Source: Candidatus Aenigmatarchaeota archaeon (GTDB taxonomy: Archaea; Aenigmatarchaeota; Aenigmatarchaeia; Aenigmatarchaeales; JAHLMR01). From it: 64,000 nt of DNA. The stretch is from the NCBI GenBank assembly GCA_018920255.1, contig JAHLMR010000001.1:1-64000 (forward strand), written 5' to 3'. Shown in pieces: positions 39,615 to 62,135 of this stretch. The translations under genes were made by a program, and so were the position numbers. How positions within the stretch are numbered: position 1 is the first letter of the stretch; each line of letters begins with the position of its first letter. The notes beneath the pieces are model-generated. The model saw nothing but the letters and a program-made list of their open reading frames with translations. It made no database searches and had not been told where the DNA came from.

Positions 39615-39841
39615 TGGCGCCCCTGACGGGATTTTCTCTGAAACTTCTTTACAACTTCTTTAAAAAAGAAGTTGCATCAAGAAAATTTATCTTTCTTGCT
39701 GAAGCTTCTTTCTTAAAGAAAGAAGCTTCTTTGAACCCGTGACCTCTTGCTTTCTTCTTTAGAGCGCTTCTCATAGCACAGCTCAAACCTTCTATATTAA
39801 AATAGAAGGCAAGCGCTCTGTCCAAACTGAGCTACAGGGGC
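39615..39841 (-). tRNA. tRNA-Arg(TCT) with two introns
   Basis: Reading the minus strand: acceptor GCCCCTG, D-arm GCTC...GAGC, anticodon stem CTTGC...GCAAG, T-stem ACGGG...CCCGT, acceptor CAGGGGC, then GCCA (CCA encoded). The anticodon loop is CT-TCT-A, then an intron of about 52 nt, then A. This is the canonical 37/38 position. A second intron of about 98 nt splits the T-loop: TTCAAA, intron, T (between positions 59 and 60). The T-loop intron begins with the hairpin GAAGCTTCTTTC/GAAAGAAGCTTC, then has two more hairpins, as in tRNA-Asn. With both removed, a normal 77-nt tRNA results that closely matches tRNA-Arg(CCT). Confidence 0.92.
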
Positions 39842-39908
39842 ATTTATATAATTATTGATAGATAAACTTTTATAAAATAAACACATAATTAATTTTTGTG
39901 TGATTTTT

Positions 39909-42632
39909 ATGAATTGGTATGAAAAGGGAGTTTTTGAAGCAGAACCATCTAATAATAAAAAATTTTATATGTTATTTGCATATCCAACGACATCTGGCAT
40001 ATTACATATTGGTCATGCAAGATCATATACTATTCCAGATGTAATAGCAAGATATAAAAGATTAAGAGGTTTTAATGTTTTATTCCCTCTAGGTTTTCAT
40101 GCTACAGGAATAGATTGTATAAAAATTTTTGATAAAATAAAAGAAAATTTAGAAAATGCTAAAATATATGGTATTCCAATAGAAGATGCAAAAAAAATAT
40201 TTTCACCAGAAGAATTAGAAAAATATTTTGAAAAAAGAATGGAAGAATCCATGAAAAAATTAGGAATTTCTTTAGACTTTAGAGAAAAAGTATCAACAAT
40301 AGACCCACAATATAAAAAATTTATTCAATGGCAATTTAAAAAACTAAAAGAAAAAGGTTATTTAATTCAAAGAGACTATCGTCTTGCTTGGTGTCCAAAA
40401 TGTAATAATCCTGTGAGTTTAGATCCAGCGGAAGCAGATATTTCAGAATGGAAAGGAGCCCAAATAAAAGAATATTTTATAATAAAATTTAAAATTGAAA
40501 ATGAAGATGTCTATCTTCCTGCTGCAACAATGCGTCCAGAAACTATTTTTGGAGTAACTAATATTTGGATAAATCCAAATGGAAAATATGTTAAAGCAAA
40601 AGTTGATAATGAAATATGGGTAGTTTCAAATGATGCAATTAAAAAACTTGAAAATTTAGATAAAAAAATAGAAATAATTAAAGAAATTTCTAAAAACGAT
40701 ATTTTAGGAAAAAATGTAATAAATTCAATAACAAAAAATAAGGTCCCAATTTTAGAAGGAGAATTTGTTGATATTTCAGAGGCCACAGGAGTTGTAATGT
40801 CAGTTCCAGCACACGATCCGTTTGATTATATTTATCTTAAGAAAAAAGCACCAAATATAAAAACAATTCAAGTAATAGAAGTTTTAGGTTTTGGAAAAGA
40901 ACCAGCAGGAGAAATTTTAAGAAAAATGAATATTAAAGATGAAAAAGATCCAAAAATTGAAGAAGCTGTAAAAGAATTATATAAATTAGAATTTCAAGGA
41001 AAAATGTTAAATTCTATAGAAAAATTTGGAGGTATGTTAGTTTCAGAAGCAAAAGAAAAAATAGTAAAATATATAGATTCTATTGGAGCAGGAGATAGAA
41101 TTTATGAATTTTCTGTAAAACCAATACACTGTAGATGCGGGACAGAAATAATTATTAAAAAAGTATCTAATCAATGGTTTATAGATTATGGAAATAAACA
41201 ATGGAAAGAAATAACTAAAAAAGCAATAGAAAAAATGAATTTTTATCCTGAAGAATATAAAAAAGAATTACCAGGAATTATTGATTGGTTAGAAGCAAGG
41301 CCATGTGTTAGAAAAAGAGGTTTTGGAACAGATTTTCCTTTTGAAAAAGATTGGAAAATAGAAGCTTTAAGCGATAGTACAATATACATGGCATTCTTCA
41401 TTATAAGTAAATATATAAATAATGGAGAAATAAAAATAGATGATTTAACAGATGAATTTTTTGATTATGTTTTTCTTAATAAAAAAATTAAAATAAAAAA
41501 TAAAATTTATGAGAAAATAAAAAAAGAATTTGAATATTGGTATCCACTTGATTTAAATGCTGGTGGTAAGGAACATAAGGCAGTTCATTTTCCATTTTTT
41601 ATTTTTCATCATACTGCAATATTTCCAGAAAAATATTGGCCAAAAGGAATATTTTTAAATTGGCATTTAATTGTAGAAGGTAAAAAAATGTCAAAACATT
41701 TAGGGAATGTTATATACATAGATGATGCAATTAAAGATTTTGGAGCAGATGCAGTTCGTTTATACGTAATAAATGGTTGTAATCAATGGCAAGATTTTGA
41801 TTGGTCAAATAAAATAGCTGAAAATTATAAAAAAATAATTTCTGAATTTAAAGAAATTTTCTTAGAATTAATAAAATCAGAATCAAAAGAAATAAAGAGA
41901 ATTGATAAATGGTTTGCATCAAGGTTTAATCATAATTTAGAATTAGCAACAGCACTTTTAGAAAAAAATGAAATTAAAAAAGCATCAGATATTTTATTTT
42001 TTAATGTTTTATCTGATATAAAATGGTATAAGAATAGAACTAAAAATTATAATATAAAAAATATACTTCTCAATTGGTTGAAATCTATTTCAATTTTTAT
42101 ACCATTTACAGCAGAAGAGTTATGGAATGCTACAGGTAATACTGGTTTTATTTCAAATGAATCATGGCCAAAAATAGATTCAAATGCAATAAACTTAAAA
42201 ATAGAAGCAGAAGAAGAAGTAGTAAAAAAAATTATTGAAGATATAAATGAAATTAAAAAAATAACAAATATAGAAAAACCACAAAAAATTTCAATTATAG
42301 TTTCTGAAAAATGGAAATATGAAGTGTATAATTATGTTGTACAAGGAAAAGACATAAAAGATATTATGAGTGATGAAAAATACAAAAAAATAGGAAAAAG
42401 AGTTATAGATTATATATTAAAATTAAAGAAAAAATTCATCAAAGATGAATTATTTTTATCAGAAACATCTGAATTTTCTGCAATATGTGATGCAAAAGAA
42501 TTTCTTGAAAATATTTTTAAATGTGATATTGAAATATACAGAGCAAATAAAATTCCAAACGATGCAGCAGAAGAAATTAAGAAAAAAGCATTGTCTGCTG
42601 AACCAGGAAAACCAGGAATAATTTTATATTAA
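39909..42632 (+). CDS. leuS: Leucyl-tRNA synthetase
   Basis: A 907-residue archaeal LeuRS. HIGH motif in SGILHIGHARSY, zinc-type motif CPKCNNPVSLDP, editing domain (TMRPETIFGVTNIW ... VVMSVPAHDPFDY), signature KMSKHLGN (the KMSKS loop) and an anticodon-binding helical domain. The C-terminal region ends in AEPGKPGIILY, typical of archaeal LeuRS. ATG 39909 is chosen; the in-frame GTG at 39900 forms part of the GTGATTT ribosome binding site. Its stop overlaps the convergent TrmB-like gene by four bases. Confidence 0.95.
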   Translation: MNWYEKGVFEAEPSNNKKFYMLFAYPTTSGILHIGHARSYTIPDVIARYKRLRGFNVLFPLGFHATGIDCIKIFDKIKENLENAKIYGIPIEDAKKIFSPEELEKYFEKRMEESMKKLGISLDFREKVSTIDPQYKKFIQWQFKKLKEKGYLIQRDYRLAWCPKCNNPVSLDPAEADISEWKGAQIKEYFIIKFKIENEDVYLPAATMRPETIFGVTNIWINPNGKYVKAKVDNEIWVVSNDAIKKLENLDKKIEIIKEISKNDILGKNVINSITKNKVPILEGEFVDISEATGVVMSVPAHDPFDYIYLKKKAPNIKTIQVIEVLGFGKEPAGEILRKMNIKDEKDPKIEEAVKELYKLEFQGKMLNSIEKFGGMLVSEAKEKIVKYIDSIGAGDRIYEFSVKPIHCRCGTEIIIKKVSNQWFIDYGNKQWKEITKKAIEKMNFYPEEYKKELPGIIDWLEARPCVRKRGFGTDFPFEKDWKIEALSDSTIYMAFFIISKYINNGEIKIDDLTDEFFDYVFLNKKIKIKNKIYEKIKKEFEYWYPLDLNAGGKEHKAVHFPFFIFHHTAIFPEKYWPKGIFLNWHLIVEGKKMSKHLGNVIYIDDAIKDFGADAVRLYVINGCNQWQDFDWSNKIAENYKKIISEFKEIFLELIKSESKEIKRIDKWFASRFNHNLELATALLEKNEIKKASDILFFNVLSDIKWYKNRTKNYNIKNILLNWLKSISIFIPFTAEELWNATGNTGFISNESWPKIDSNAINLKIEAEEEVVKKIIEDINEIKKITNIEKPQKISIIVSEKWKYEVYNYVVQGKDIKDIMSDEKYKKIGKRVIDYILKLKKKFIKDELFLSETSEFSAICDAKEFLENIFKCDIEIYRANKIPNDAAEEIKKKALSAEPGKPGIILY

Positions 42633-43393
42633 ATTTCTTGTGAGTTTTTCCAAAATTCTTCAAACTTTTCATAAAAATTTACAGGATAGTTAAAAAAATA
42701 AACTCCAGATTTTGTTACAGGATCATATGTTATTCCATGCATTTTATCTGAAATTATAACATATGGCCAAACTTTTCCAAGTCTTAATTCTATACCAATT
42801 TTTCTTAAAGATTCACTTTGATCTGGATGTATTTGTTCTAAAATTGCTCTTATATGTACATTTCTATTTACTGCTCTTCCTAATGCATCTAAAATATTAA
42901 TATTATCAAAAAATTTATCAAAAGTTATAATTATATCTTTTTTTGCTATATCAATAATTAATGCAGCTTTATCTATAAAACCATTTTCATATTTTTCATA
43001 AACCTTTTGATCATTCCAAATTTTTTCTTGCGGAACAAACCAATTCCACAATTTTTCACATACTGCACAATTTTTCTTTTTTTCAATATACTCTGCAGTT
43101 ATTTTACTTAAAATTCTTGGAATTGGATTGCAAGATTGAGTTATCCAAAATTTTTTATTACTCCCTATATTACCTTTACTACTTTCTATTATTCCTTTTT
43201 CTTGTAATGAATAAAGATATTTATATGTATTTGTAACAGACATTCCACAAAGTTTTGCAATTTCATTAGCATCAAAAATTTTCTTTTTCTCTTTATAAAA
43301 TTTTTCTAACATTATTGAAAGAATCTTAATTTCAAGCTTGTTAAAAAACCTTATTTTTTCAAGATAATTAATAAGCTCTTCAATTTTTGGCAT
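42629..43393 (-). CDS. TrmB-family transcriptional regulator
   Basis: A 254-residue TrmB-like regulator. The N-terminal winged helix (about 15-80; FYKEKKKIFDANEIAKLCGM, TNTYKYLYSLQEKGIIESSK) is followed by a phospholipase-D-like alpha/beta sensor domain (KAALIIDIAKKDIIITFDKF ... LRLGKVWPYVIISDKMHG). A two-cysteine CAVCEKLW motif lies between them. Family members sense sugars or other metabolites, but the ligand here is unknown. It faces away from the FKBP gene at 43482; the 90-base gap holds both promoters. Confidence 0.82.
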   Translation of the reverse strand: MPKIEELINYLEKIRFFNKLEIKILSIMLEKFYKEKKKIFDANEIAKLCGMSVTNTYKYLYSLQEKGIIESSKGNIGSNKKFWITQSCNPIPRILSKITAEYIEKKKNCAVCEKLWNWFVPQEKIWNDQKVYEKYENGFIDKAALIIDIAKKDIIITFDKFFDNINILDALGRAVNRNVHIRAILEQIHPDQSESLRKIGIELRLGKVWPYVIISDKMHGITYDPVTKSGVYFFNYPVNFYEKFEEFWKNSQEI

Positions 43394-43481
43394 AATAAAA
43401 TTTTATATAAATAACTTTTTATAATTATATGTTTATTTATAATTTAAAAAAATAAAATAAAAAATTATAAAAGGTGATATA

Positions 43482-44090
43482 ATGCAAAAGGGAGATTTCA
43501 TAGAAATTTCATATACAGGAAAAATAAAAGAAAACGGATCTATTTTTGATAAAGGAGATGTAATAATAGCTTTGGGTAGAAATATGATTCTTCCTCCTTT
43601 AGAAAAATATCTTTTAGAAATGAATGTAGGTGAAAGAAAAAATGTAAATGTTTCTCCTGAAGAAGCCTTTGGAAAAAGAAACGAAAATCTTATAAAAACT
43701 ATACCCTTATCAGAATTTAAAAAACATAATACAAATCCATATCCAGGTATGATAATTTCTGCAGATAATATGCAAGGAAGAGTTCTTTCTATAAATGGTG
43801 GAAGAGTTACTGTAGATTTTAATCATCCTCTTGCAGGAAAATATTTGAATTATGATATAGAAATAAAAAGAAAAATAGAAGATAAAGAAGAAAAAATAAG
43901 AGCTATTTTAGAATATTTTTCTAAATCAAAATTAGGAAAAATTGAAATAAAAGAAATAGATAAGAAAATTGAAATTATTGTTCCGCCTATTTTAAATCCG
44001 TTAGTTAAGAAACTTGTTTCTAATGAAATATTTGAAATATTTGATTTTGATGAAGTAAAATTTTCTGAAGTTTTTGAACGTAAAAAATAA
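43482..44090 (+). CDS. FKBP-type peptidyl-prolyl isomerase (SlyD-like)
   Basis: A 202-residue FKBP of the archaeal SlyD type. The FKBP fold (GDFIEISYTGKIKENGSIFD ... MNVGERKNVNVSPEEAFGKR) contains an inserted IF chaperone domain (LIKTIPLSEFKKHN ... GRVLSINGGRVTVDFNHPLAG) and has a C-terminal extension of about 60 residues. It should act as a cytosolic folding catalyst and chaperone. No histidine-rich metal tail is present, unlike bacterial SlyD. AAAGGTGATA precedes the ATG. Confidence 0.92.
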   Translation: MQKGDFIEISYTGKIKENGSIFDKGDVIIALGRNMILPPLEKYLLEMNVGERKNVNVSPEEAFGKRNENLIKTIPLSEFKKHNTNPYPGMIISADNMQGRVLSINGGRVTVDFNHPLAGKYLNYDIEIKRKIEDKEEKIRAILEYFSKSKLGKIEIKEIDKKIEIIVPPILNPLVKKLVSNEIFEIFDFDEVKFSEVFERKK

Positions 44091-44167
44091 ATTATATTTT
44101 AATTTATAATTTTTTAATTATCTTTAAATATCTTTCTAACTTTTTAAATAAATAATTTTATTATAAA

Positions 44168-44174
44168 AGGAGGT
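44168..44174 (+). promoter_or_regulatory. Strong ribosome binding site of ftsZ
   Basis: AGGAGGT seven bases before the ftsZ ATG is one of the strongest sites in the window, where most genes use GGTGAT or none. A TATA-like CTTTAAATATC lies about 60 bases upstream, giving a real 5' leader. This implies high translation of ftsZ. Confidence 0.6.
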
Positions 44175-44181
44175 TATTTTT

Positions 44182-45270
44182 ATGGCAGTAAAAGCTATAG
44201 ATGCGAAGAAACAAGGTTCTGCAGATAATTCTGTTGATGAAGAATTAAGAAGACTTTTAGAAGCAAAAAAAGCAGTTATAAAAGTTGTTGGTATTGGTGG
44301 TGCAGGAAATAATACTGTGTCAAGAATGATGCAAGTAGGAATAGTTGGAACAGAAATAATTGCAATAAATACTGATGCACAAGATTTACTTTATACTGAT
44401 GCAGATACAAAAATTTTAATAGGAAAGGAATTAACAAGAGGACTTGGAGCAGGAGCAGATCCCCATATTGGAATGGAAGCAGCAAAGGAATCAAAGGATG
44501 AAATTAAAGATGCACTTCGTGGAGCAGATATGGTTTTTATAACATGCGGACTTGGTGGAGGAACAGGAACTGGAGGGGCACCAATAGTTGCTGATGTTGC
44601 TAAAAAATTAGGAGCTCTTACAGTAGCTGTTGTAACTCTTCCATTTACAATGGAAGGAAATCAAAGATATGATAATGCTAGATACGGATTAGAACAATTA
44701 GAGGGAGTTGTAGATACATTAATAGTAATTCCAAATGATAAATTGTTAGAAATTGTACCTGATGTAAGTATAATGACAGCATTTAAAGTAGCAGATGAAA
44801 TTTTAGTAAATTCTGTTAAAGGAATAGCCGAATTGGTAACAAAACCAGGTCTTGTTAACTTAGATTTTGCAGATATAAGAGCAATTATGGGAAGTGGTGG
44901 AATAGCAATGATTGGAATGGGCGAAAGTGACACAGAAAACAGAGCAATAGAAGCAGTAGAAAAAGCTATTAACAACCCATTACTTGATGTTGATATTGAA
45001 GGAGCAACAGGTGCTTTAATAAATGTAAGTGGTGGTCCAGATATAACTATGAGAGAATGTCAAGAGATTGTTGAGGCAATAAGAACAAAACTTTCACCAG
45101 ATGCTAAAATTATTTGGGGTGCACAAATAAATAAAGAAATGGGAGATACAATAAGAGCAATGATGATAGTAACTGGTGTAAAAAGTAATCAAATTTTTGG
45201 ACAAACAAAGACTACAACAAAAGAAAGAACAAAGGAAATTGAAAAAGTTCTTGGAATAGAATTTGTATAA
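44182..45270 (+). CDS. ftsZ: Cell-division GTPase FtsZ
   Basis: A 362-residue FtsZ. The nucleotide-binding domain opens with [17 protein letters not shown]; the tubulin signature is [13 protein letters not shown]; the T7 loop ([11 protein letters not shown]) and ISGGPDITM-like segment ([12 protein letters not shown]) follow. This is archaeal FtsZ1/2-type and forms the division ring. The C-terminal tail is short (after [10 protein letters not shown]) and basic. It is followed by a clear terminator hairpin and then the secE-nusG-L11 operon, a common gene order in archaea. Confidence 0.96.
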
Positions 45271-45297
45271 AAGCTGTGTTAAAACACGGCTTTTTAA
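45270..45297 (+). terminator. Hairpin plus T-run after ftsZ
   Basis: AAAGCTGTGT-TAAA-ACACGGCTTT forms a 10-bp stem (one T-G pair) followed by a T-run, directly at the ftsZ stop codon. It looks like an intrinsic terminator and separates ftsZ from secE. Confidence 0.65.
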
Positions 45298-45352
45298 ATA
45301 TTTATTTTAATATTTAAATATTCTTCTATTTTATTAATTTCAAGGTGAAAAT

Positions 45353-45583
45353 ATGGAGAATATACAAAAAATACAAAATCAAGAAAAAAGAAAATTTTTA
45401 CAGGAAATAAAAATAGTTAAAAAAATTAAAGAAAAAATTGAAATGTATAAAAGAACAATAGAAATAGCAAAAAAACCAGATAAAGAAGAATTTATTTATT
45501 CAGCAAAAGTAACTGTTATTGGAATAGGAATAATAGGAATAATAGGTTTTATATTATTTGTATTATATAATTTATTTATGTGA
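45353..45583 (+). CDS. secE: Preprotein translocase subunit SecE
   Basis: A 76-residue SecE/Sec61-gamma. A charged amphipathic N-terminal helix (FLQEIKIVKKIKEKIEMYKR) leads to a single C-terminal membrane span (VTVIGIGIIGIIGFILFVLY). It clamps the SecY channel. Typical position before nusG: its TGA stop lies within the GTGATAA ribosome binding site of nusG. AAGGTGAAA precedes the ATG. Confidence 0.92.
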   Translation: MENIQKIQNQEKRKFLQEIKIVKKIKEKIEMYKRTIEIAKKPDKEEFIYSAKVTVIGIGIIGIIGFILFVLYNLFM

Positions 45584-45588
45584 TAAAT

Positions 45589-46044
45589 ATGGCAATATAT
45601 ACTGTAAGAACAACTGCTGGAAGAGAAAATATTGTAATAAATGCAATATTAAATAGAATTAAAACTTCAGGATTAGATATCAAAGCAATGTTTCATCCAT
45701 CTGAAATTAAGGGTTACATTTTTATAGAAGGAACTTATGATGTAATAGAAAAAGCAATAACAGGTGTACCACATATTCGAGGATTAATAAAAAAAGAAAT
45801 ACCAATTTCTGAGATTAAAAAATTTATGGAAATAAAGAAAACAGAAATAAAATTAAATCGTGGAGATATTATAGAAGTTATAAGTGGACCATTTAAGGGA
45901 GAAAAAGGAAAAGTAACAAGATTTGATGAAGCTAAAAGAGAAGTAACAATAGAACTTCTTGAAGCTGTTGTGCCAATTCCAATTACTGTATCTACAGATG
46001 TCGTTAAAATTATAGAACATGCTGAAAAGAAAGCAGGTGAATAA
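45589..46044 (+). CDS. spt5: Transcription elongation factor NusG/Spt5
   Basis: A 151-residue archaeal Spt5 with an NGN domain (MAIYTVRTTAGRENIVINAI ... IKGYIFIEG) and a KOW domain (RGDIIEVISGPFKGEKGKV). With Spt4 it closes the RNA polymerase clamp and raises processivity. ATG 45589 is used because the upstream in-frame GTG belongs to the ribosome binding site. It is in an operon with secE and L11; the rpl11 start follows the stop directly. Confidence 0.95.
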   Translation: MAIYTVRTTAGRENIVINAILNRIKTSGLDIKAMFHPSEIKGYIFIEGTYDVIEKAITGVPHIRGLIKKEIPISEIKKFMEIKKTEIKLNRGDIIEVISGPFKGEKGKVTRFDEAKREVTIELLEAVVPIPITVSTDVVKIIEHAEKKAGE

Positions 46045-46045
46045 T

Positions 46046-46531
46046 ATGGGAAAGCAAAGTCTAAAATTACTTGTTGAAGGTGGAAAAGCAACACCAGCAC
46101 CACCATTAGGTCCAGCATTATCTCAAGCAAAATTAAACGTTGGACAGGTTATAGCTAAAATAAATGAGAAAACAAAATCATTTGCAGGAATGCAAGTTCC
46201 AGTAGAAGTTATATATGACCCTTCAGATAAAACCTTTGATATAAAGGTAGGTACACCACCTGTTAGTGCTTTAATTAAAAAAGAATTAAAAAAAGAAAAG
46301 CTTGCAAAAACACCATGGAAAGAGCCACCTGTAGCTGATTTAACTATTAAACAAGCATTAGAAATAGCAAAAGCAAAGCGCGATAAGCTAAATACTGATA
46401 ATGTTAAGAAAGCAGTAAAACAAATCATAGCATCATGTGTAAGTCTTGGAGTTACAGTTGAAGGAAAAAATCCCAAAGATGTTTTAAAGGAAATAGATGA
46501 AGGAAAATATGATAAAGAATTAAATTGGTAG
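46046..46531 (+). CDS. rpl11: Ribosomal protein L11
   Basis: A 161-residue uL11. The N-terminal part has GGKATPAPPLGPALSQ, the conserved switch region with prolines, and the C-terminal RNA-binding domain ends near CVSLGVTVEGKNPKDV. It binds the GTPase centre of 23S rRNA with the P-stalk. ATG 46046 follows GGTGA; the nusG stop codon TAA is at 46042-46044. The longer frame upstream would overlap nusG and is unlikely. Confidence 0.96.
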   Translation: MGKQSLKLLVEGGKATPAPPLGPALSQAKLNVGQVIAKINEKTKSFAGMQVPVEVIYDPSDKTFDIKVGTPPVSALIKKELKKEKLAKTPWKEPPVADLTIKQALEIAKAKRDKLNTDNVKKAVKQIIASCVSLGVTVEGKNPKDVLKEIDEGKYDKELNW

Positions 46532-46546
46532 TTAACTAAAGAAATC

Positions 46547-46615
46547 TTTAAATATTTTTATAATTATCCTATTTATAACTGCCTTGAGCAGTAGCATTGT
46601 GCGAAGGAGTTATTT
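46547..46615 (+). promoter_or_regulatory. Promoter and structured leader of the L1-P0-L12 operon
   Basis: TTTAAATA at 46547-46554 predicts transcription from about 46577. The leader opens with the hairpin ACTGC-CTTGA-GCAGT (46578-46592); an alternative pairing joins CCTT (46582-46585) to AAGG (46604-46607), which lies within the ribosome binding region GAAGGAGT. This G/C-rich leader just before L1 is the kind of place where L1 controls its own operon in other archaea and bacteria. Whether it mimics the 23S L1 site is not proven. Confidence 0.5.
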
Positions 46616-47260
46616 ATGGAAATTAAAAATTTAGAAAAGAGTTTAGAAGAACTTAAAAAAACATCAATTAAAAGAAATTTTGTTCAATCTATTGATTTAA
46701 TAATTTCTTTAAAAAATTTAGATTTAAAAAAACCAGAAAACAGAATAAAAGCTGAAATATCTATTCCAGTACAATTTAAACCAAATAAAATAGGAATTTT
46801 TGCTGATACATTAATACCAAAAGTTAAAGAGCTTGGAGATTCTGTGATCTTAATAAGAAAAGAAGAAATAGAAAGTTATGGAAAAAATAAAAAACTTGCA
46901 AAAAAACTTGCAAAGCAGTGTAATTCATTTATCGCTGAGCCAAATCTTATGGCAAGTATAGGAAAAAATTTAGGTCCTATTTTAGCACCAAGAAATAAAA
47001 TGCCAAAACCTATCCCCCCAAATATAACTGATTTAAAACCAATTGTAGAAAGAGAGAAATCACTCATTAAAATTTTTGTAAAAGATTCTCCTGTAATTCA
47101 ATGTTCAGTTGGAAAAGAAAACATGAAAAATGAAGATATAATTCAAAATATAAAAGCAATAATAGATAATATAGAAGCAATTCTTCCAAACGGAAAAGAA
47201 AATATAAAAAATATTTATTTAAAATTAACAATGGGTGGAAAACCAATAAAGTTGATATAA
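46616..47260 (+). CDS. rpl1: Ribosomal protein L1
   Basis: A 214-residue uL1, which forms the mobile stalk near the E site of the large subunit. Characteristic segments are FVQSIDLIISLKNLDLKKPE near the N-terminus and NLGPILAPRNKMPKPIPPN in the middle, with the C-terminal LTMGGKPIKL. It leads an operon with P0 and L12, with P0 beginning directly after its stop codon. A structured leader upstream may provide autoregulation. Confidence 0.96.
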   Translation: MEIKNLEKSLEELKKTSIKRNFVQSIDLIISLKNLDLKKPENRIKAEISIPVQFKPNKIGIFADTLIPKVKELGDSVILIRKEEIESYGKNKKLAKKLAKQCNSFIAEPNLMASIGKNLGPILAPRNKMPKPIPPNITDLKPIVEREKSLIKIFVKDSPVIQCSVGKENMKNEDIIQNIKAIIDNIEAILPNGKENIKNIYLKLTMGGKPIKLI

Positions 47261-48112: not shown

Positions 48113-48131
48113 AATAAAAGAAGGTGATAAA

Positions 48132-53240: not shown

Positions 53241-53242
53241 AT

Positions 53243-54708: not shown

Positions 54709-54842
54709 AATTTTTAATGTGTGTTATTAATATTTAAAATTTTAGTAAATCAAGGATCTATCATCTGTAACTATTATTATTTCCACATAAAATTCAAAGG
54801 AAATTCCAAAAATTTAAATATTTTTAAGTACATTTTATAATT

Positions 54843-55010: not shown

Positions 55011-55015
55011 TAAAA

Positions 55016-55798
55016 ATGGGAATTTTTGATTTTCTTTTCAAAAAGAAAAAAATTGACCCAGAATCAATAAATTATTTTAAATACTTCATTTATGATGATT
55101 ATTTAATTTTTGACTTATCATTTCTTAATGAAAGAATTTTAAAATGCTATACAGATTTAATTAAAAAATATACAAAATTAAGTATTTCAAAGGAAAAAAT
55201 TAAAAATCTAATTTTAGAACATTCTCGCGCAATTTTTCTCGAAAAAGGAAAAATATCTTTTATTAAATTTAATTTTAGTTACCTTTCTTTTCTTCAATAT
55301 TTTATAATTCCATTACCAAATGATATAAAATCATTATTTGAATTTATTCAAAATTATAAACTCATTCCAATAAATGTTAATTTTACAGGTGTTAATTTCA
55401 TAGATTTTTTTCGTAGACGTTCATTTGAAGAAGGACCAGAAGAGGGTCCTAATAAATTTTTGTTCGTTCCTTTATCTAAAATGAATAAAATATGTACTGG
55501 AGGTTTAGATATTGCTAACAATGTTAATAAAATTTTTGATTGTTATTCTGAACTTATAATAAATTCAATAAATCTTAAAGACAAGAAACAAAAGAATAAT
55601 ATAAGAAATTTAATAAGTCTTGTTTGTGGAATCTCAACAGACTTTTACTCTAGTTCAGGAGAACTACTAGCAAAATGCTATTATGATGGTCATGAGAAAG
55701 GTCTTGTTTTATATACAAAGTTAAATAAAGAAAAAATCAATGAAATTTTAAGGAAATATAACTTTTCTTTAACAACAAATAAAATATATTTTAGATGA
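55016..55798 (+). CDS. Uncharacterised protein
   Basis: A 260-residue protein with hydrophobic patches (SFLQYFIIPLPN) but no clear membrane helices. The N-terminus is MGIFDFLFKKKK, a charged-aromatic start common in membrane-associated soluble proteins. No known motif. It follows the small secreted peptide with a five-base gap and could be co-transcribed with it. Function unknown. Confidence 0.55.
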   Translation: MGIFDFLFKKKKIDPESINYFKYFIYDDYLIFDLSFLNERILKCYTDLIKKYTKLSISKEKIKNLILEHSRAIFLEKGKISFIKFNFSYLSFLQYFIIPLPNDIKSLFEFIQNYKLIPINVNFTGVNFIDFFRRRSFEEGPEEGPNKFLFVPLSKMNKICTGGLDIANNVNKIFDCYSELIINSINLKDKKQKNNIRNLISLVCGISTDFYSSSGELLAKCYYDGHEKGLVLYTKLNKEKINEILRKYNFSLTTNKIYFR

Positions 55799-55861
55799 AG
55801 CTTCTATAGATAGATTGCACTTTCAATTGTTACTTTAAAAAATAAGCATTAATTATAAAAA

Positions 55862-55950
55862 TGGTAGCCCCGGTAGGATTCGAACCTACGTCTCAAGGTT
55901 TCTTCCAATTGACCAGAGCCTTGCATGCTTGACCGCTACACCACGGGGCT
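55862..55950 (-). tRNA. tRNA-Gln(CTG) with 13-nt intron
   Basis: Minus-strand reading: acceptor AGCCCCG, D-arm with TAGCGGTCAAG loop, anticodon stem CAAGG...CCTTG, T-arm GTAGG-TTCGAAT-CCTAC, acceptor CGGGGCT, discriminator A, CCA encoded. The anticodon loop is 20 nt, CT-CTG-G then TCAATTGGAAGA, implying an intron of about 13 nt at the canonical 37/38 position. Anticodon CTG reads Gln. The T-loop is intact here. Confidence 0.92.
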
Positions 55951-56050
55951 ATGCTAATTTATTTTTCTTTAAGCTTTTAAATTTTTTAAAGCATTAATTT
56001 TAAATTTTACTAATTTATAATTCTTTTAATTAAAATTAAAGGGTGATTTT

Positions 56051-56266
56051 ATGATAGAAGAAAAACAATTTATACTTATATTAAATGGAGAAGAATTTAT
56101 AAGTCCAGATAAATATGTTGTAGACTTTTATGGGAATAGATATATGATTTTTGAAAGTAAATCTAGAGCATTTAAAATAAAAGTTTATAGAGATGATCTA
56201 GAGATAGATATGGTTACAGGAAAATGCAAACTTAAACCAGGAAAAAGGGTTATTCCTTTAAATTAG
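56051..56266 (+). CDS. 71-residue conserved-looking protein
   Basis: A small soluble, beta-rich protein (DKYVVDFYGNRYMIFESKSR, ending KLKPGKRVIPLN). It has no Cys or HTH motif. A good GGTGATTTT ribosome binding site precedes ATG 56051. Its end overlaps that of the convergent winged-helix gene. Family not recognised. Confidence 0.55.
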   Translation: MIEEKQFILILNGEEFISPDKYVVDFYGNRYMIFESKSRAFKIKVYRDDLEIDMVTGKCKLKPGKRVIPLN

Positions 56267-56489
56267 AATTTTCTAAAGATTTTAAATATCTTTCTCCATT
56301 TTGTGTTATAGCATACGATACTTCTCCCAATGGATGAACGATAGTTATATATCCTTTTTCAGCAAGAGATTTTACAGCACCAATTGTACCGTTAACAGTT
56401 CCAATTTTTGAAAGAAGTTCACTTTTAGTTATAAATGAAAATTCTTTTAATATTTTTAATATTTTTATTTCTGTTTCACTTAATGTCAA
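56250..56489 (-). CDS. Small winged-helix protein, TTG start
   Basis: A 79-residue winged helix (LSETEIKILKILKEFSFITK, then GAVKSLAEKGYITIVHPLGE) resembling MarR-like regulators. The in-frame GTG at 56498 is part of the GGTGATT ribosome binding site, so TTG at 56489 is the likely start, by the same pattern as many genes here. It starts 12 bases after the DJ-1-like gene stop on the same strand, probably co-transcribed. Confidence 0.68.
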   Translation of the reverse strand: MTLSETEIKILKILKEFSFITKSELLSKIGTVNGTIGAVKSLAEKGYITIVHPLGEVSYAITQNGERYLKSLENSNLKE

Positions 56490-56501
56490 ATGAATCACCG
56501 A

Positions 56502-57044
56502 TTATGCTAAAATTTCAGATTTAACTTTTATCATTTTTTCTTTACCAAGCATAATTTCTACTATTTTTAATGCAAATTGTATTGCTGTTCCCGGACCTCT
56601 TGATGTTATAAAGTTTTCATCTACAACCACAGGATCATCTCTCGGTCTATCAAAATTTTTTTCAAAACCAGGATATGCAGTTGCTTTTTTATCTTTTAAT
56701 AATCCTAATTTTGCAAGTATTAATGGAGCTCCACAAATTGCAGCAACAATTTTTCCAGATTTTCCATATTTTTCAACTATTTTTAATACAGAAGGTGTTT
56801 TCATAAGATTTTCATAGCCAGGATATCCTCCAGGCAAAATTATAGCATCAAAATTATCTATGTCAGATTCTATATCTACTAAACGCTTATCAACTTGAAC
56901 TTTTAATCCATGAGCACCAGTTATAAAATTTCCAGTTGTGCCAACAACTAGCAAATTTATACCAGCTCTTCTAAGTATATCAATTACAGAAATAGCTTCT
57001 ATTTCCTCAAACCCATCTGCTAAAGTTATAATAGCTTTTGGCAT
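56502..57044 (-). CDS. DJ-1/PfpI-family protein
   Basis: A 180-residue DJ-1/PfpI-like protein. The nucleophile elbow is AAICGAPLIL with the reactive Cys, after the ILPGGYPGYENL segment; the N-terminus is KAIITLADGFEEIEA with the Glu that activates Cys. Such proteins act as glyoxalases/deglycases or proteases. The ATG at 57044 follows GGAGGAGAT, so it is preferred to 57059. It is transcribed away from the endonuclease genes. Confidence 0.9.
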   Translation of the reverse strand: MPKAIITLADGFEEIEAISVIDILRRAGINLLVVGTTGNFITGAHGLKVQVDKRLVDIESDIDNFDAIILPGGYPGYENLMKTPSVLKIVEKYGKSGKIVAAICGAPLILAKLGLLKDKKATAYPGFEKNFDRPRDDPVVVDENFITSRGPGTAIQFALKIVEIMLGKEKMIKVKSEILA

Positions 57045-57153
57045 ATCTATCTCCTCCATTTTTATTATAAATTTTAAGTATTTAATAATTTTAAAGTTTA
57101 TTTTTATATTATTAAGTGATATTTTTAAACTTCATAATTTTTAATATTTATTT

Positions 57154-57666
57154 ATGTTAAATGGAACTTTTGAAAAAAATAAAGTTATTGTTGAAGGAGA
57201 AGGAATAAAAAATTTATTTAATAATGGTTGGTATGGAAATATTGAAAATAATAAACTTATTTTAGACTTATTTGAAGCAGCATTTCTTTTAGAACGTGGA
57301 AAAATAGAAATTTTTAAGGATAATGAAAAAATTAAAATAGATGAATTTTTTGGCATATGTTGTAATCTCGATAAAAGTTTTATGTATAAATATTCAGTAT
57401 ATTCTGATTTAAGAAATAGAGGTTTAATAGTAAGAGCTGGATATATTGGTACAGATTTTAAAGTTTATGAAAGAGGAGCAAAGCCAAATAAAAATGAAAA
57501 AATTAAATGGATTGTTTTTGTTTCATCAGAAGAATATCCTTGTATTTTAGAACAACTTGGAAAAGCAATAAAACTTTCTCAAAATATAAGAGCAACAGCT
57601 GTTTGGGCTGTAGTTGATACTGATTTAGATGTTACATATTATATTATAAATTCAATAATTCCGTGA
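57154..57666 (+). CDS. tRNA-splicing endonuclease-like subunit, catalytic His and Lys missing
   Basis: A 170-residue EndA-family protein. The C-terminal nuclease fold has YSVYSDLRNRGLIVRAGYIG and FKVYERGAKP, keeping the Tyr of the catalytic triad (Y115 in M. jannaschii EndA numbering). Where the catalytic His is expected the sequence reads NEKIKW, and where Lys is expected it reads IRATAV. It thus looks like a structural subunit. It overlaps the start region of the second EndA-like gene, so they should assemble as a heteromer. The N-terminal domain is also present. Confidence 0.82.
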   Translation: MLNGTFEKNKVIVEGEGIKNLFNNGWYGNIENNKLILDLFEAAFLLERGKIEIFKDNEKIKIDEFFGICCNLDKSFMYKYSVYSDLRNRGLIVRAGYIGTDFKVYERGAKPNKNEKIKWIVFVSSEEYPCILEQLGKAIKLSQNIRATAVWAVVDTDLDVTYYIINSIIP

Positions 57667-57671
57667 GAGTT

Positions 57672-58214
57672 ATGAAAATAAAAGGAATTTTGCTAAATAA
57701 TAGAGTAAGAATATATGATTTTAATAAAGCAAAAAGTATTTATGAGGAAGGATATTATGGAAAACTTAAGGAAGATTGTTTAGATTTATCATTAATAGAA
57801 GCATGTTATTTATTAGAAAAAGAAAAAATTATTATAGAAGATAGTAATAAAAACCAATTAAATTTTGAAGAATTTTATAAAAAGTGTCAAGAAATAGATG
57901 AAAGATTTCATATAAAATATATTGTATATTCAGATCTAAGGAATAGAGATTTGCCAACTAGAACAGGGTTTAAATTTGGTTGTGATTTTAGAGTTTATAA
58001 CAGGGGAGTAAAACCAATAAAAAGAGGTCCAAAAGCTCCACATGAACACACGAAATGGATAGTTTTTGTAATTCCTTATAATTATAAATTTACATTTCCA
58101 GAATTTTCTAGAGCAGTAAGACTTGCACATAATATTAGAGCACACATGCTTTGGGCTGTTGTTGATGAAAATAAAGAAGTTAAATATTTTGAAATAACAT
58201 TCTTCAAACCATAA
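57672..58214 (+). CDS. endA: tRNA-splicing endonuclease subunit with Tyr and His but no usual Lys
   Basis: A 180-residue EndA homologue, complete length. It has IKYIVYSDLRNRDLPTRTGF, FGCDFRVYNRG with the catalytic Tyr, and a HEHTKW segment with His at the expected position. The catalytic Lys in the IRKKL motif of other enzymes is Ala here (NIRAHMLWAVVD). The start is ATG 57672 (GTG 57663 overlaps the stop of the preceding gene). Its stop codon is followed at the next base by the 3' end of the intron-bearing tRNA-Phe. Heteromeric EndA enzymes in other archaea cut non-canonical introns. Confidence 0.88.
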   Translation: MKIKGILLNNRVRIYDFNKAKSIYEEGYYGKLKEDCLDLSLIEACYLLEKEKIIIEDSNKNQLNFEEFYKKCQEIDERFHIKYIVYSDLRNRDLPTRTGFKFGCDFRVYNRGVKPIKRGPKAPHEHTKWIVFVIPYNYKFTFPEFSRAVRLAHNIRAHMLWAVVDENKEVKYFEITFFKP

Positions 58215-58353
58215 TGGTGGGGTGGGCGCGACTCCCAGCAACTTCTTTTAAGAAAAGAAGTTGCGAACCTTCTTTCTTAAAGAAAGGAGGTTTTTTGAAC
58301 GCGCGACACCACGGTCTTCAGCCGTGTGCTCTCCCGGGCTGAGCTACCACCCC
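58215..58353 (-). tRNA. tRNA-Phe(GAA) with T-loop intron
   Basis: Acceptor GGGGTGG ... CCACCCC, D-arm GCTC...GAGC, anticodon stem CACGG...CCGTG with loop CT-GAA-GA, T-stem GCGCG...CGCGC, discriminator A and encoded CCA. The T-loop is TTCAAA, then about 62 nt, then T: an intron between positions 59 and 60. The intron has two stacked hairpins and ends GGGAG, and is almost identical to the one in tRNA-Arg(CCT). Its 3' end touches the endA stop codon. Confidence 0.93.
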
Positions 58354-58390
58354 GGCTTTTAAAATTATAATTTCAAAAGAATTTAAAAGT

Positions 58391-58648
58391 TTATTTTTTA
58401 ATTTTAATAGAATATATCCAAAAATCTTTTGCAAATTTTTCATTTAAAATATTAATCAACTTTCCTTTTTCTTTCAAATGATTTTCACAAATTTTAACTT
58501 CCGCAAGATCTTTTTTTATTTGTTTTTTTATATTAGTTTTTGTAATAATAAAAGAATCAAAATATTTATTCTTACAATTTTTAAAACTACATATATTTAC
58601 ATCTTTTCTAAAATCAAAAATTTTTAATAAAAATTCAATGTCTTCCAT
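58391..58648 (-). CDS. Small lysine-rich protein with possible zinc site
   Basis: An 85-residue basic protein: MEDIEFLLKIFDF, then NICSFKNCKNKYFDSF and VKICENHLKEK, where Cys-x4-Cys and Cys-x2-His could bind zinc. ATG 58648 follows GGTGAAATA; the longer frame would run into the tRNA-Asn gene. No recognised family. It lies between two interrupted tRNA genes and shares their orientation, perhaps transcribed downstream of tRNA-Asn. Confidence 0.6.
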   Translation of the reverse strand: MEDIEFLLKIFDFRKDVNICSFKNCKNKYFDSFIITKTNIKKQIKKDLAEVKICENHLKEKGKLINILNEKFAKDFWIYSIKIKK

Positions 58649-58661
58649 TATTTCACCAAAA

Positions 58662-58850
58662 TGGCGCCTGGGACAGGATTTTCTTCGAAACTTCTTCGAA
58701 ACTTCTTTTAGAAAAAGAAGTTTCATCAAGAAAATTTGTCTTTCTTGATGAACCTTCTTTCTTAAAGAAAGAAGGTTTTTTGAACCTGTGACCTAGTGGT
58801 TAACAGCCACTCGCTCTTTGTTGTTGAAATTCCAACTGAGCTACCCAGGC
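58662..58850 (-). tRNA. tRNA-Asn(GTT) with T-loop intron and enlarged D-loop
   Basis: Acceptor GCCTGGG ... CCCAGGC, D-stem GCTC...GAGC, anticodon stem AGTGG...CCACT with loop CT-GTT-AA, T-stem ACAGG...CCTGT, G discriminator and encoded CCA. The T-loop holds an intron of about 100 nt between positions 59 and 60, starting with the same hairpin as in tRNA-Phe but with further hairpins. The D-loop is 21 nt (AGTTGGAATTTCAAC..., closing before GAGC), about 12 nt over normal, with a possible hairpin GTTG/CAAC: a second small intron or an insertion. Confidence 0.92.
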
Positions 58851-58907
58851 ATTAAAATATTTTATTAATTACAAATATTTATAAATGCTTACTTTTAATT
58901 AATTTAT

Positions 58908-59651
58908 ATGGTAGAAATTGAAAAGGTTATTGCTGATAGTTGGAATGCATATAAAAAAGGATGGAAAAAAATAGGAACATATACTTTTTTTATATTTATT
59001 ATTATTGGAATTTTATATTTATTAACGCTTTTAAGTTTTACAATTTCATTTTATTTAGGTGGAATTATATGTTTAATATATTTGTTTATTAGTTTAACTT
59101 TACCAGCAGGATTATTACATTTATATAATTTATCTTTTACTAAAAAGAAAATTAAATTAAAATTATTATTTGATTTTATTTCTAAGAACTGGATTAAAAT
59201 TTTAAAAGTTTCAATATTGCAATTTTTAATAATTGCATGTATTTTTTCACCAATATTTATTTCATTAGCATTTTATTATTCCACTGAATCTTTAATATAT
59301 CTTTTTTTAGTTATTCTTTTCTCTTTTATTTCATTTTTAATTTCTTTATTTTTTGTCTTTCCAATATACTCTTTTGTTATAGAAAAATTAAGTACTATTA
59401 ATTGTATAAAGAGAAGTGTTTATATTGTTAAAAACAATTATTTCAGTTTAATTGTATTATATTTTGCTATAACACTATTAGCCTTATTTTCATCAATAAT
59501 AGTATTGCCATTATTTTTATTATTTGTTATTTCAATTATTTTAATACCTTTTGCTATAATTTTAATTATTCTTTATTTATTTTATTTTATTATACCATTG
59601 ACATATTTTATTTTTATTTCATTTTATAGAAACGCAATTAAACGTCATTAA
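58908..59651 (+). CDS. Polytopic membrane protein
   Basis: A 247-residue integral membrane protein with about six hydrophobic segments (TYTFFIFIIIGILYLLTLLS, IFISLAFYYSTESLIYLFLV and others). The N-terminus is VEIEKVIADSWNAYKKGWKK, resembling membrane domains of DUF4013-like archaeal proteins. No transport motif is seen. It converges on rnhB with a four-base overlap. Function unknown. Confidence 0.6.
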   Translation: MVEIEKVIADSWNAYKKGWKKIGTYTFFIFIIIGILYLLTLLSFTISFYLGGIICLIYLFISLTLPAGLLHLYNLSFTKKKIKLKLLFDFISKNWIKILKVSILQFLIIACIFSPIFISLAFYYSTESLIYLFLVILFSFISFLISLFFVFPIYSFVIEKLSTINCIKRSVYIVKNNYFSLIVLYFAITLLALFSSIIVLPLFLLFVISIILIPFAIILIILYLFYFIIPLTYFIFISFYRNAIKRH

Positions 59652-60313
59652 ATTTTAATACAAAAACCTTCAAGTTTTTTCTGCTTATTTTCTCCAGATA
59701 ATTCTATAAAAGTAGCCCATGATTTTCTAATAAATTCTAAATGCTTTTTATTTTTTATACATTCTTTAACAAATTTGATTGTTTTTTCATCATGAGGATA
59801 ACCAACTCCAAAATTATAATTAACTTTTTCTTTTATTTTTTCTATTTCTTTATCTCTTTCAACTTTAGCAATTATTGATGCCGCACTAACAATTGGATAT
59901 TTTCTGTCAGCAAAATTTTCTGATATTATTTCAGTATCAATTTTTACAAGAGCTTTAAGATACATTTTAAATTTTTCAGTTGTAACTTGTGGAGCATCAA
60001 CGTAAACTTTATCTGGTTTTAATGCTCTTATTATTTCTGCCATTCTTTCAGCTTCTATTTTGTTTAAATTCTTTCTTTCTCTTAATTTATCTATTTCAGA
60101 AGCAGAAATTTTTATTATAATCCAATCATTTAAAATTTTTTTAATTTCTTCATATAACATTATTCTTTGATTATATGTTAAAAGTTTACTATCCTTTACA
60201 CCAATTTCTTTTAATTTTTCCATTTTTTCTTCATCTGCATATGCTCCAACAATTACTAATGGTCCTATCAACGCTCCACGTCCAGCTTCATCAATACCTA
60301 ATATTTTTTTCAT
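59648..60313 (-). CDS. rnhB: Ribonuclease HII
   Basis: A 221-residue RNase HII. The signature KILGIDEAGRGALIGPLVIV has catalytic D8 and E9; the third acid is in VYVDAPQ, the fourth in the SIIAKVERDKEI region; GVGYPHDEKT is conserved. It removes RNA from RNA-DNA hybrids, including Okazaki primers and single ribonucleotides. Length is typical of archaea. It is transcribed away from tRNA-iMet. Confidence 0.95.
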   Translation of the reverse strand: MKKILGIDEAGRGALIGPLVIVGAYADEEKMEKLKEIGVKDSKLLTYNQRIMLYEEIKKILNDWIIIKISASEIDKLRERKNLNKIEAERMAEIIRALKPDKVYVDAPQVTTEKFKMYLKALVKIDTEIISENFADRKYPIVSAASIIAKVERDKEIEKIKEKVNYNFGVGYPHDEKTIKFVKECIKNKKHLEFIRKSWATFIELSGENKQKKLEGFCIKI

Positions 60314-60366
60314 ATTAAGAATTATAATTAAATATTTTAAATACTTTCAATTTTTATATTTTTAAT

Positions 60367-60453
60367 AGCGGGATGGGGCAGCCAGGAGTGCCCGTCGGGC
60401 TCATAATTTTTTAAGAAACCCGAAGGTCGGACGTTCAAATCGTCCTCCCGCTA
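60367..60453 (+). tRNA. Initiator tRNA-Met(CAT) with 12-nt intron
   Basis: Acceptor AGCGGGA ... TCCCGCT (with A1-T72 as in initiators), D-arm GGGC...GCCC, anticodon stem TCGGG...CCCGA with the three G-C pairs of initiator tRNAs, T-arm GGACG-TTCAAAT-CGTCC. The anticodon loop CT-CAT-A is followed by about 12 extra bases (ATTTTTTAAGAA), among the shortest introns possible. The T-loop is intact. CCA is not encoded (CTA follows). Confidence 0.93.
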
Positions 60454-60488
60454 CTATTTTTAAAAAAGTATTAATTGATATTATTTTT

Positions 60489-61073
60489 ATGAAATCTCAA
60501 GTAGAGCCGATTGTTTTTATCCTATTATTATTAATAGTTTTAATTTTAATTTTAACTGCAATGCTTTGGGGAAGAGATATAATTCAAAATAATATAGATG
60601 CCGGAAGATTATCTAGAGCAGAACAATTTATTGTAAATTTAGATAATTTAATTCAAAATATCGCACAAAATGGCGGTTCAGAAAAAATTGAATATCCATT
60701 AGATGCAGATATATATATTACCGATGAATGTACTGGTATTACTCCTTTAGAATTAGATAAATGCATTCAAATAGAACAAAAAAATTCATTATCTTTACAA
60801 GAAAAATGGACTTATATAAACACAGAAAATCCAAATAAATATGGAAGTTTTAATGATTCAATAAGTATTATAAGAGAAAAAAAAGAAGGAGATAAAGTAA
60901 TAATTCAATTATATTATAGAATTCGTGGAGATTATAATTATACAATTGAATTAGAAAAAATGAGTTATTCATTTAAACCTTCATATATTTTAATAGAAAG
61001 TGGTGGCACAGAAGTACAAAAAATTATTCAAGGAAATTATATTATTTCTAAAATAAAACTATCATTCATATAA
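60489..61073 (+). CDS. Single-span membrane-anchored protein
   Basis: A 194-residue protein with one N-terminal hydrophobic helix (EPIVFILLLLIVLILILTAM), then a soluble region with two Cys (DECTGI, DKCIQI) and beta-rich C-terminal half. The N-terminus resembles archaeal pilin-like or archaellin-like proteins in general shape, but no prepilin peptidase site is evident, so I do not assign it. It begins 35 bases after tRNA-iMet. Confidence 0.55.
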   Translation: MKSQVEPIVFILLLLIVLILILTAMLWGRDIIQNNIDAGRLSRAEQFIVNLDNLIQNIAQNGGSEKIEYPLDADIYITDECTGITPLELDKCIQIEQKNSLSLQEKWTYINTENPNKYGSFNDSISIIREKKEGDKVIIQLYYRIRGDYNYTIELEKMSYSFKPSYILIESGGTEVQKIIQGNYIISKIKLSFI

Positions 61074-61104
61074 ACTTTTTATTTTAATTAATATTATTAA
61101 TTTT

Positions 61105-61677
61105 ATGATATCTGAAGCATCTGGACAGTTTTTGTTAAGATTTTCAAGACAGGCTATTATAGAATATTTAAAAAATAAAAGAAAAATAGACATTCCAAAA
61201 AATTATCCAAAAGAACTTAATGAGAAAAAAGGAATTTTTGTTACACTACATAAAGAAATTAGGAACGGAATTTATGAACTAAGAGGTTGTATGGGAATAC
61301 CATATCCAATTATGCCAATAATAGAAGCAGTTATTGAAGCATCTATTTCTGCTGCAAATGATCCAAGATTTATTAAACTAAAGGAAGACGAATTAAAAAA
61401 AATTAAAATTGAAATTTCAATTTTAACAGAACCAGAATTAATTAAAGTAAAAAAACCAGAAGATTATTTGAAAAATATAAGATCAAAAATTGATGGTTTA
61501 ATTATTAAAAAAGGAATAATGTCTGGATTACTCTTACCTCAAGTTTGGAATGAAGTGAAGGATAAAGAGGAGTTTCTTAACATTCTTTGTTATAAAGCAG
61601 GCTTATTAAGAGATTCATGGAAAGATCCATCAGTAGAAATATATAAATTTCAAGTTCAAATTTTTAAGGAAAAATAA
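61105..61677 (+). CDS. AMMECR1-domain protein
   Basis: A 190-residue AMMECR1 protein with the signature LRGCMGIPYPIMPI and the stretch AAASISAAN-like ASISAANDPRF, ending in YKAGLLRDSWKDPSVEIYKF. The archaeal family is widespread with no firm function; in some genomes it neighbours a radical SAM and MEMO-type genes, not seen here. Likely cytosolic. A pair of strong hairpins follows the stop. Confidence 0.93.
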   Translation: MISEASGQFLLRFSRQAIIEYLKNKRKIDIPKNYPKELNEKKGIFVTLHKEIRNGIYELRGCMGIPYPIMPIIEAVIEASISAANDPRFIKLKEDELKKIKIEISILTEPELIKVKKPEDYLKNIRSKIDGLIIKKGIMSGLLLPQVWNEVKDKEEFLNILCYKAGLLRDSWKDPSVEIYKFQVQIFKEK

Positions 61678-61678
61678 T

Positions 61679-61750
61679 CCGTCCGAGAAGAAAAAAGACT
61701 CGGACGGTGAGGAGGCAACGGGATTCTAGGTATTTTTAAACCTAGAATCC
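61679..61750 (+). ncRNA. Two strong GC-rich hairpins: structured RNA or double terminator
   Basis: Hairpin 1 (61679-61707) pairs CCGTCCGAG with CTCGGACGG around an A-rich 11-base loop. A linker TGAGGAGGCAACG follows. Hairpin 2 (61721-61750) pairs GGATTCTAGG with CCTAGAATCC around TATTTTTAAA. Both stems are perfect. GC-rich structures stand out in this genome as RNA. The first starts two bases after the AMMECR1 stop, so it might end that transcript, but terminators here normally end in T-runs and these do not. No C/D or H/ACA boxes were found. Confidence 0.5.
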
Positions 61751-61994
61751 ATATTAACTATTTATAAGTAAAGATATTTAAAGTTTTCTATTATTATGTT
61801 AATAGTTAAACTATAAGTTCAGGTTTTAACTATTATTAAACTTTTTTAAATAAATCTTTCAATATCATTTTTATGCATTGGCCTACAATTAGCGTAATTC
61901 TGCTTGATAAAATTAACAAAGAAATTATTTACTTATTCTTTTGTTAAAAATATTTATATTAATAGTTAAAATATAATTTTTAACTAAAATTTAT
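61751..61994. other. Repeat-bearing spacer before tRNA-Arg(CCT)
   Basis: No firm gene. TAATAGTTAAA occurs at 61800-61810 and 61960-61970, and inverted (TTTAACTATTA) at 61825-61835. A TTTAAATA box at 61845-61852 lies about 25 bases before an ATG at 61873 that opens a 24-codon frame (to 61947), the arrangement of a leaderless message. The last repeat sits in the promoter region of the tRNA gene. Confidence 0.4.
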
Positions 61995-62135
61995 GCCCCT
62001 GTAGCTCAGTTTGGACAGAGCGCTTGCCTCCTAAGCAAGATGTCGCGCGTTCAAAGAACCTTCTTTCTTTAAGAAAGAAGGTTCGCAACTTCTTTTCTTA
62101 AAAGAAGTTGCTGGGAGTCGCGCCAGGGGCGCCAT
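61995..62135 (+). tRNA. tRNA-Arg(CCT) with T-loop intron
   Basis: Acceptor GCCCCTG ... CAGGGGC, D-arm GCTC...GAGC, anticodon stem CTTGC...GCAAG with loop CT-CCT-AA, T-stem GCGCG...CGCGC, discriminator G, encoded CCA. The T-loop TTCAAA...T is split by about 62 nt between positions 59 and 60. The intron consists of a hairpin (GAACCTTCTTTC/GAAAGAAGGTTC) and a second (GCAACTTCTTTT/AAAAGAAGTTGC), ending TGGGAG. It matches the tRNA-Phe intron at nearly every base. Confidence 0.94.

Follow-up and report, generated by a model that had tools for sequence, protein, structure and literature searches.

Are the introns of archaeal tRNA genes relics or recent invaders, and how could they move without self-splicing and without a visible reverse transcriptase? 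This old and open question is raised by a stretch of 64,000 nucleotides from a Candidatus Aenigmatarchaeota archaeon (assembly GCA_018920255.1, contig JAHLMR010000001.1, positions 1 to 64,000, forward strand; hereafter the window), in which the tRNA genes for Arg(TCT), Phe, Asn and Arg(CCT) are interrupted in the T-loop by similar introns. The window is a portion of contig C11 of the genome designated G000 (552 kb, 25 contigs, 94.6% complete, 0.01% contamination, 25% G+C), and intron coordinates are window positions. It is probable that these are bulge-helix-bulge (BHB) introns at position 59/60, removed by the tRNA splicing endonuclease, and that they came to occupy at least 16 tRNA genes of this genome mainly by copying that resembles gene conversion. 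The direction and precision of single moves, and the co-transfer of flanks, can be read here because many near-identical copies occupy one site between isotype-specific flanks and because a related lineage has at least one family that arose in parallel.

The four window genes were read directly and with a scanner that seeks a T-stem and an acceptor stem across an insertion. tRNA-Arg(TCT) (39615..39841, minus strand, including an encoded CCA and a further intron in the anticodon loop) contains a T-loop intron of 98 nt at 59/60 (39632..39729), tRNA-Phe(GAA) (58215..58353, minus strand, including CCA) one of 62 nt (58232..58293), tRNA-Asn(GTT) (58662..58850, minus strand, including CCA and a short D-loop insertion) one of 100 nt (58679..58778) and tRNA-Arg(CCT) (61995..62134, plus strand, including CCA) one of 62 nt (62056..62117); each intron lies on the strand of its gene. 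All four are preceded by TTCAAA, ending at A59, and followed by T60, the arrangement described in a first-pass annotation of the window, and removal of the intron leaves a T-stem of 5 bp and an acceptor stem of 7 bp in each product. The lengths given there (∼62 nt for Phe and Arg(CCT), ∼100 nt for Asn and Arg(TCT)) held, as did the near identity of the shorter pair, which are equal at 60/62 positions with both mismatches in the first 7 nt. The hairpin type TTCTTTC/GAAAGAA, also pointed out there, was enriched, with three occurrences in the window against 0.02 expected.

The family extends well beyond these four genes. A composite intron query matched G000 at 16 places (BLAST, E<0.005), every one of them a tRNA T-loop, and no copy outside tRNA genes was matched by this search. 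The hosts are the genes for Arg-TCT, Arg-CCT, Phe, Asn, Gly-CCC, Gly-TCC, Thr-GGT, Lys-CTT, Met, Trp, Ser-CGA, Ser-GGA, Ser-TGA and three Leu tRNAs; they lie on nine contigs with differing flanks, and their introns are 53–129 nt in length, 10 of the 16 exceeding 100 nt. Shorter T-loop introns (15–24 nt), dissimilar from the family, were found in Cys, Gly-GCC and Thr-CGT. The list of tRNA genes was built from Rfam, intron BLAST and motif matches on a genome searched in pieces, so that genes may be missed; approximately 39 were delineated by hand, roughly half with an interrupted T-loop. In the window, which holds at least five tRNA genes, ARAGORN reported one and Rfam at its gathering threshold also one. 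Interrupted T-loops are thus overlooked by standard tRNA finders and genomes of this kind would look poor in tRNAs. TTCAAA was present in 15/16 family-bearing tRNAs and 12/19 others (p=0.047, hand-collected counts), which is at most a hint of a target preference. An exact 25-base pattern gave no match in 84,980 species genomes, a set from which the genome itself and very near ones were possibly excluded; the result indicates only that this precise stretch is absent from the other species listed. As a separate observation, the 29-kb contig G000:C23 alone holds Met, Thr-CGT, Gly-CCC, Gly-TCC and Lys, five tRNA genes interrupted in the T-loop.

The introns consist of successive hairpins that have the core CTTCTTT..AAAGAAG and are joined by linkers of the ATCAAGAAAGAC type. 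The outer arms of the hairpins are of four kinds (GAAC, GAAG, GAAA and GCAA) and are complementary in 28/30 hairpins; counted over distinct hairpin sequences the figure is 12/14, against a shuffled mean of 3.1. Complementarity of arms across alternative sequences argues that the hairpins themselves are maintained. Other identities considered for these sequences were rejected: matches over the introns to PyrR, mir-1252 and similar Rfam families fell below the gathering score and reflect generic hairpins, and TGATGA-like and CTGA-like strings were present, none of the introns having both in the order of a C/D-box guide RNA when read by eye. No group I or group II intron core was matched by Rfam within the window, and the introns are only 53–129 nt long.

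Boundaries of exon and intron were set by the tRNA stems alone. In all 15 long introns tested (Ser-TGA stands outside this count) the exon sequence TTC at positions 54–56 was complementary to intron positions −5 to −3, while random offsets gave a mean of 1.1 and a maximum of 6 in 5000 trials. The resulting geometry is that of a BHB whose bulges are 3 nt long, mostly AA|G and NN|T; since a fourth pair, at position 57, is formed in only 6/15, most are relaxed BHBs. For example, TTCA of tRNA-Arg(CCT) (62050–62053) pairs with TGGG (62112–62115), leaving 3-nt bulges at both splice sites. The succession of T-stem, bulge, helix and bulge was present in the minimum free energy fold of many precursors, and the four window introns folded far better than shuffled sequences (z −3.5 to −6.3). 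ARAGORN recognized none of 18 unspliced genes as tRNAs and 15 of the 18 after removal of the T-loop intron in silico. No intact second copy of an interrupted isotype was found among the Rfam hits; as the genome is nearly complete, the interrupted genes are probably sole copies which must be spliced. Because removal restores a tRNA, the geometry is BHB or relaxed BHB and an endonuclease is encoded, these are most likely archaeal BHB tRNA introns, as judged from modelled structures.

The endonuclease is encoded in the window by two genes on the plus strand, identified by domain match and alignment. The first (57154..57666, 170 amino acids) is the probable structural (beta) subunit and the second (57663..58214, 183 amino acids) the probable catalytic (alpha) subunit, with a Lys/Arg-rich insert before the catalytic His; PF01974 and PF02778 are both present in each protein. 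The alpha protein keeps the Tyr, His and Lys positions of structure 1a79, which we take to be the Methanocaldococcus jannaschii enzyme, and its insert falls where 3iey, presumably the Nanoarchaeum equitans enzyme, also has one. In alignments read by eye the beta protein lacks two residues of the catalytic triad, His and Lys, and the pair suits a heteromeric (alpha-beta)2 enzyme. Endonucleases of this type have a broad substrate range (PMC4033280, PMC12397907). The alpha gene converges on the interrupted tRNA-Phe gene and abuts it (58150–58353), ending at the 3′ end of the tRNA.

Comparison of the introns within G000 supports spread between tRNAs of different identity. The Met and Lys introns are identical (110/110 nt), those of Gly-TCC and Ser-TGA are equal at 98/102 aligned positions and those of Thr and Met at 103/107, and yet the T-stems are often isotype-specific: in 8 of 15 comparable cases the T-stem shared 10/10 positions with an ortholog from a related genome (Ser-TGA being compared with Ser-CGA), and the T-stem of Gly-TCC agreed at 10/10 with its G003 ortholog as against 4/10 with its intron partner. 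When all pairs were taken together, similarity of the introns was not correlated with that of the exon T-arms (Mantel r=0.025, p=0.41), and conversion of whole T-arms is rejected as the general route. Similarity at the 5′ end of the intron was likewise unrelated to that at the 3′ end (r=0.018, p=0.37), while similarity at the 3′ end followed that of the flanking exon (r=0.34, p=0.009; a hint only, being one of several tests). Many of the introns thus appear mosaic, the interior being shared and the 3′ end more local.

The clear case of conversion beyond the intron is the pair Phe and Arg-CCT. A tract of 84 nt in tRNA-Phe (58225..58308, minus strand), comprising V-loop, T-stem and intron, is 98% identical to one in tRNA-Arg(CCT) (62041..62124, plus strand), in which the V-loop ATGTC and the T-stem GCGCG/CGCGC are of the Phe type. 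V-loop and T-stem of Arg-CCT agree at 15/15 positions with Phe of G003 and at 12/15 with the best Arg-CCT ortholog; at the same place in the V-loop, GG is found in four Arg-CCT relatives and TG in seven Phe sequences, and an eighth record that bears the name Phe is probably a misassigned Ala. From this comparison, Arg-CCT is best read as converted from Phe over ∼84 nt, V-loop and T-stem included.

These data suggest the following sequence of events. In the precursor the T-stem would be extended by a helix of 3–4 bp between exon TTC(A/G) and the 3′ end of the intron (GAA or GGG), with 3-nt bulges at the splice sites; the two-subunit endonuclease would cut at both bulges of this predicted structure and the joined exons would form a normal T-loop. 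The introns are assembled from interchangeable hairpin modules with four alternative complementary outer arms, and their sequences show that they spread through 16 or more tRNA genes in this lineage. Exchange resembling gene conversion between tRNA genes would overwrite the interior, whereas the exon-pairing 3′ end would tend to stay local, and at least once, from Phe to Arg-CCT, the V-loop and T-stem appear to have been copied along.

Several points weigh against this account. The limits of most transfers lie within a few nucleotides of the splice site (Gly-TCC retains its own TTCGAA), and such precision suits insertion at the level of the intron no less well than ordinary conversion; the uncorrelated intron ends could likewise stem from modules shuffled in other ways. 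No other genome of the same taxonomic family stands among the 79 genomes compared, which include G000, so that insertions in progress could not be caught. For Asn, Met and Thr-CGT, ARAGORN still called no tRNA once the T-loop intron was removed, extra insertions in the D-loop being the probable cause, and some of the 15 spliced calls carry the wrong anticodon owing to anticodon introns. In the relative G004 only 4/9 T-loop insertions obey the pairing rule, so that those boundaries are uncertain. Finally, we infer splicing itself from predicted structure.

The first of these points bears on reverse splicing, which the first-pass annotation had offered beside gene conversion. Here, endonuclease and ligase would re-insert excised and perhaps circular introns at 59/60 of other tRNAs, and cDNA made from the product would recombine into the genome, the introns acting as tiny site-specific mobile RNAs. 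The use of one identical site in all 16 genes speaks for it, as do the absence of detected copies outside tRNA genes and the recipient T-stem, mostly untouched and in Gly-TCC retained even to T-loop base 57; retention of the recipient flanks keeps this route viable. However, no RVT_1 reverse transcriptase domain was found in the 94.6%-complete G000, and the mosaic introns with uncorrelated ends, together with the flank co-transfer between Phe and Arg-CCT, point to recombination of DNA. Taken together, the missing domain and the mosaic pattern favour exchange at the DNA level. Of the two mechanisms, gene conversion thus gained support, from the 84-nt tract with its Phe-type V-loop and from the mosaics; reverse splicing we regard as unlikely.

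The related genomes bear on a further alternative, in which old, vertically inherited T-loop introns were homogenized within each genome by concerted evolution while new insertions were rare or absent. Judged by LeuRS, the closest genomes to G000 are G014 (60%), G003 (59%), G005 (56%) and G004 (54%), the best matches among named archaea being diverse at ∼39–40%. When the 79 genomes were searched with the intron query, only G003 matched besides G000 itself. In G003 a related hairpin sequence lies in tRNA-His, in the anticodon intron and near 53/54, and the other G003 tRNAs that were read have intact T-loops with no 59/60 intron. G005 contains ten introns at 59/60, with TTC paired in 10/10, and has its own family in five isotypes (Ile, Ser, Lys, His and Arg) with 47–53 of 54 positions identical, or 48–50 of 52 for the longer Arg member. 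It is thereby shown, at the level of sequence, that spread has recurred in this related lineage with a family of its own. The nine insertions of G004 include a looser family in four tRNAs (Trp, Met and two Pro).

Concerted evolution gains from the isotypes that are interrupted in more than one genome: Trp, Lys-CTT, Thr-GGT and Gly-CCC in both G000 and G005, Trp also in G004, and Met in G004 and G014. Against it, Phe, Asn, Arg-TCT and Gly-TCC are interrupted in G000 and intact in G005, the reverse holding for Ile, His and Ala, and interruption is not associated by isotype between the two genomes (2×2 table 4/6/4/5, Fisher p=1; a small hand-made table with anticodons read by eye); nor do the intact T-loops of G003 fit. 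In related genomes the T-loop of the orthologous tRNA is often uninterrupted, and where it holds an intron this is unrelated in sequence. Normalized local scores had a median of 0.48 for introns of different isotypes within one genome, as against 0.14 for introns from different genomes and 0.11 when these belonged to the same isotype, which rules against simple vertical divergence with each tRNA, the outcome that the first-pass annotation had set against exchange. Its proposal that the introns spread among tRNAs of differing identity was borne out by these unrelated introns in orthologs, the confinement of the 16-gene family to tRNAs and the BHB geometry. With the site common and the families lineage-specific, turnover is likely, and inheritance with homogenization alone is improbable.

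In G003 five tRNAs bear a different intron family (AACCCTTTTGCTGTGCAAAAGCGTTCACGG) in the D-loop, the anticodon loop and the V-arm (L114–L120, L158–L162), a single family at several tRNA positions. A GACGGCCTTCGGCCGTC-like palindrome was also found in G003 at 14 places with at most two mismatches (L121–L134), against one for a reversed-pattern control; some of these are within tRNA introns, others in flanking DNA judged to lie beyond the tRNA.

A DNA transposon of the MITE or REP type, a palindrome landing in T-loops by chance, would be in keeping with the hairpin modules and with the occurrence of the G003 palindrome in both tRNA introns and flanking DNA, but all significant BLAST places of the G000 family are tRNA genes and both the dinucleotide position and the splice geometry are constant, which makes it very improbable. 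Inactivated tRNA genes filled with repeats, or assembly artefacts, can scarcely be entertained given no intact second copy of these isotypes among the Rfam hits, T-stems and acceptors that still pair, 16 loci with differing flanks on nine contigs and 0.01% contamination.

Comparable transposition of introns is already published for the Thermoproteales, where similar introns occur among different tRNAs and movement, by a mechanism stated as unknown (PMC4090602), is thought to take place at the DNA level (PMC4090602 and PMC4033280, the source of what is given here on Fujishima 2010, MBE 27:2233). G000 resembles that system in having near-identical BHB introns in differing isotypes of one genome, gained after divergence of species, and differs in its setting, a genome of 0.55 Mb and 25% G+C with one modular family of 53–129 nt at one site (59/60) in 16 genes, and in a related lineage having, at this position too, a family of its own, a third being hinted at. 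The marks of transposition are found in G000, near-identical introns being present across isotypes and not shared vertically by orthologs in relatives. Its small size of 0.55 Mb speaks against a place within the Thermoproteales themselves. Noncanonical introns of Caldiarchaeum and Pyrobaculum similarly occur several to a tRNA and in association with a heteromeric endonuclease (PMC3293823, PMC3218864). Archaeal tRNA introns have a median length of 15 nt and, besides the guide-RNA intron of Trp, exceed 100 nt in one gene (PMC3218864), in contrast to the 10 of 16 here. The mobile-element model for Caldiarchaeum (PMC3293823) shares the recent lineage-specific gain of introns in tRNA genes; unlike it, the present introns are common to many isotypes and too short to encode a protein of their own. 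A full-text search of a partial literature found no report of such tRNA introns in DPANN archaea, as judged by title or abstract, which is weak evidence. More speculatively, T-loop BHB introns may be minimal mobile elements of this archaeal order, with a cycle specific to 59/60 by which one intron would time and again be sown into many tRNAs of a genome, tolerance by the heteromeric endonuclease and replacement of the previous family by a new one in each lineage; we hold this only tentatively.

Insertions at other positions were seen in G000. tRNA-Leu(GAG) (L016, G000:C18:42429–42544) carries a hairpin insertion of 30 nt near 53/54, read as GTGAG|AAACTTTCTT..GTTCACGAA|TTCAAAT, at about the position of the T-arm insertion in G003 tRNA-His (L090). 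Short D-loop insertions are present in many tRNAs (L025, L028, L018, L013, L020, L022, L024 and L029), among them GGTACAAATGCAGAAAAGAGC in Thr-GGT with a near copy in Thr-CGT, and these are possibly a second small intron family.

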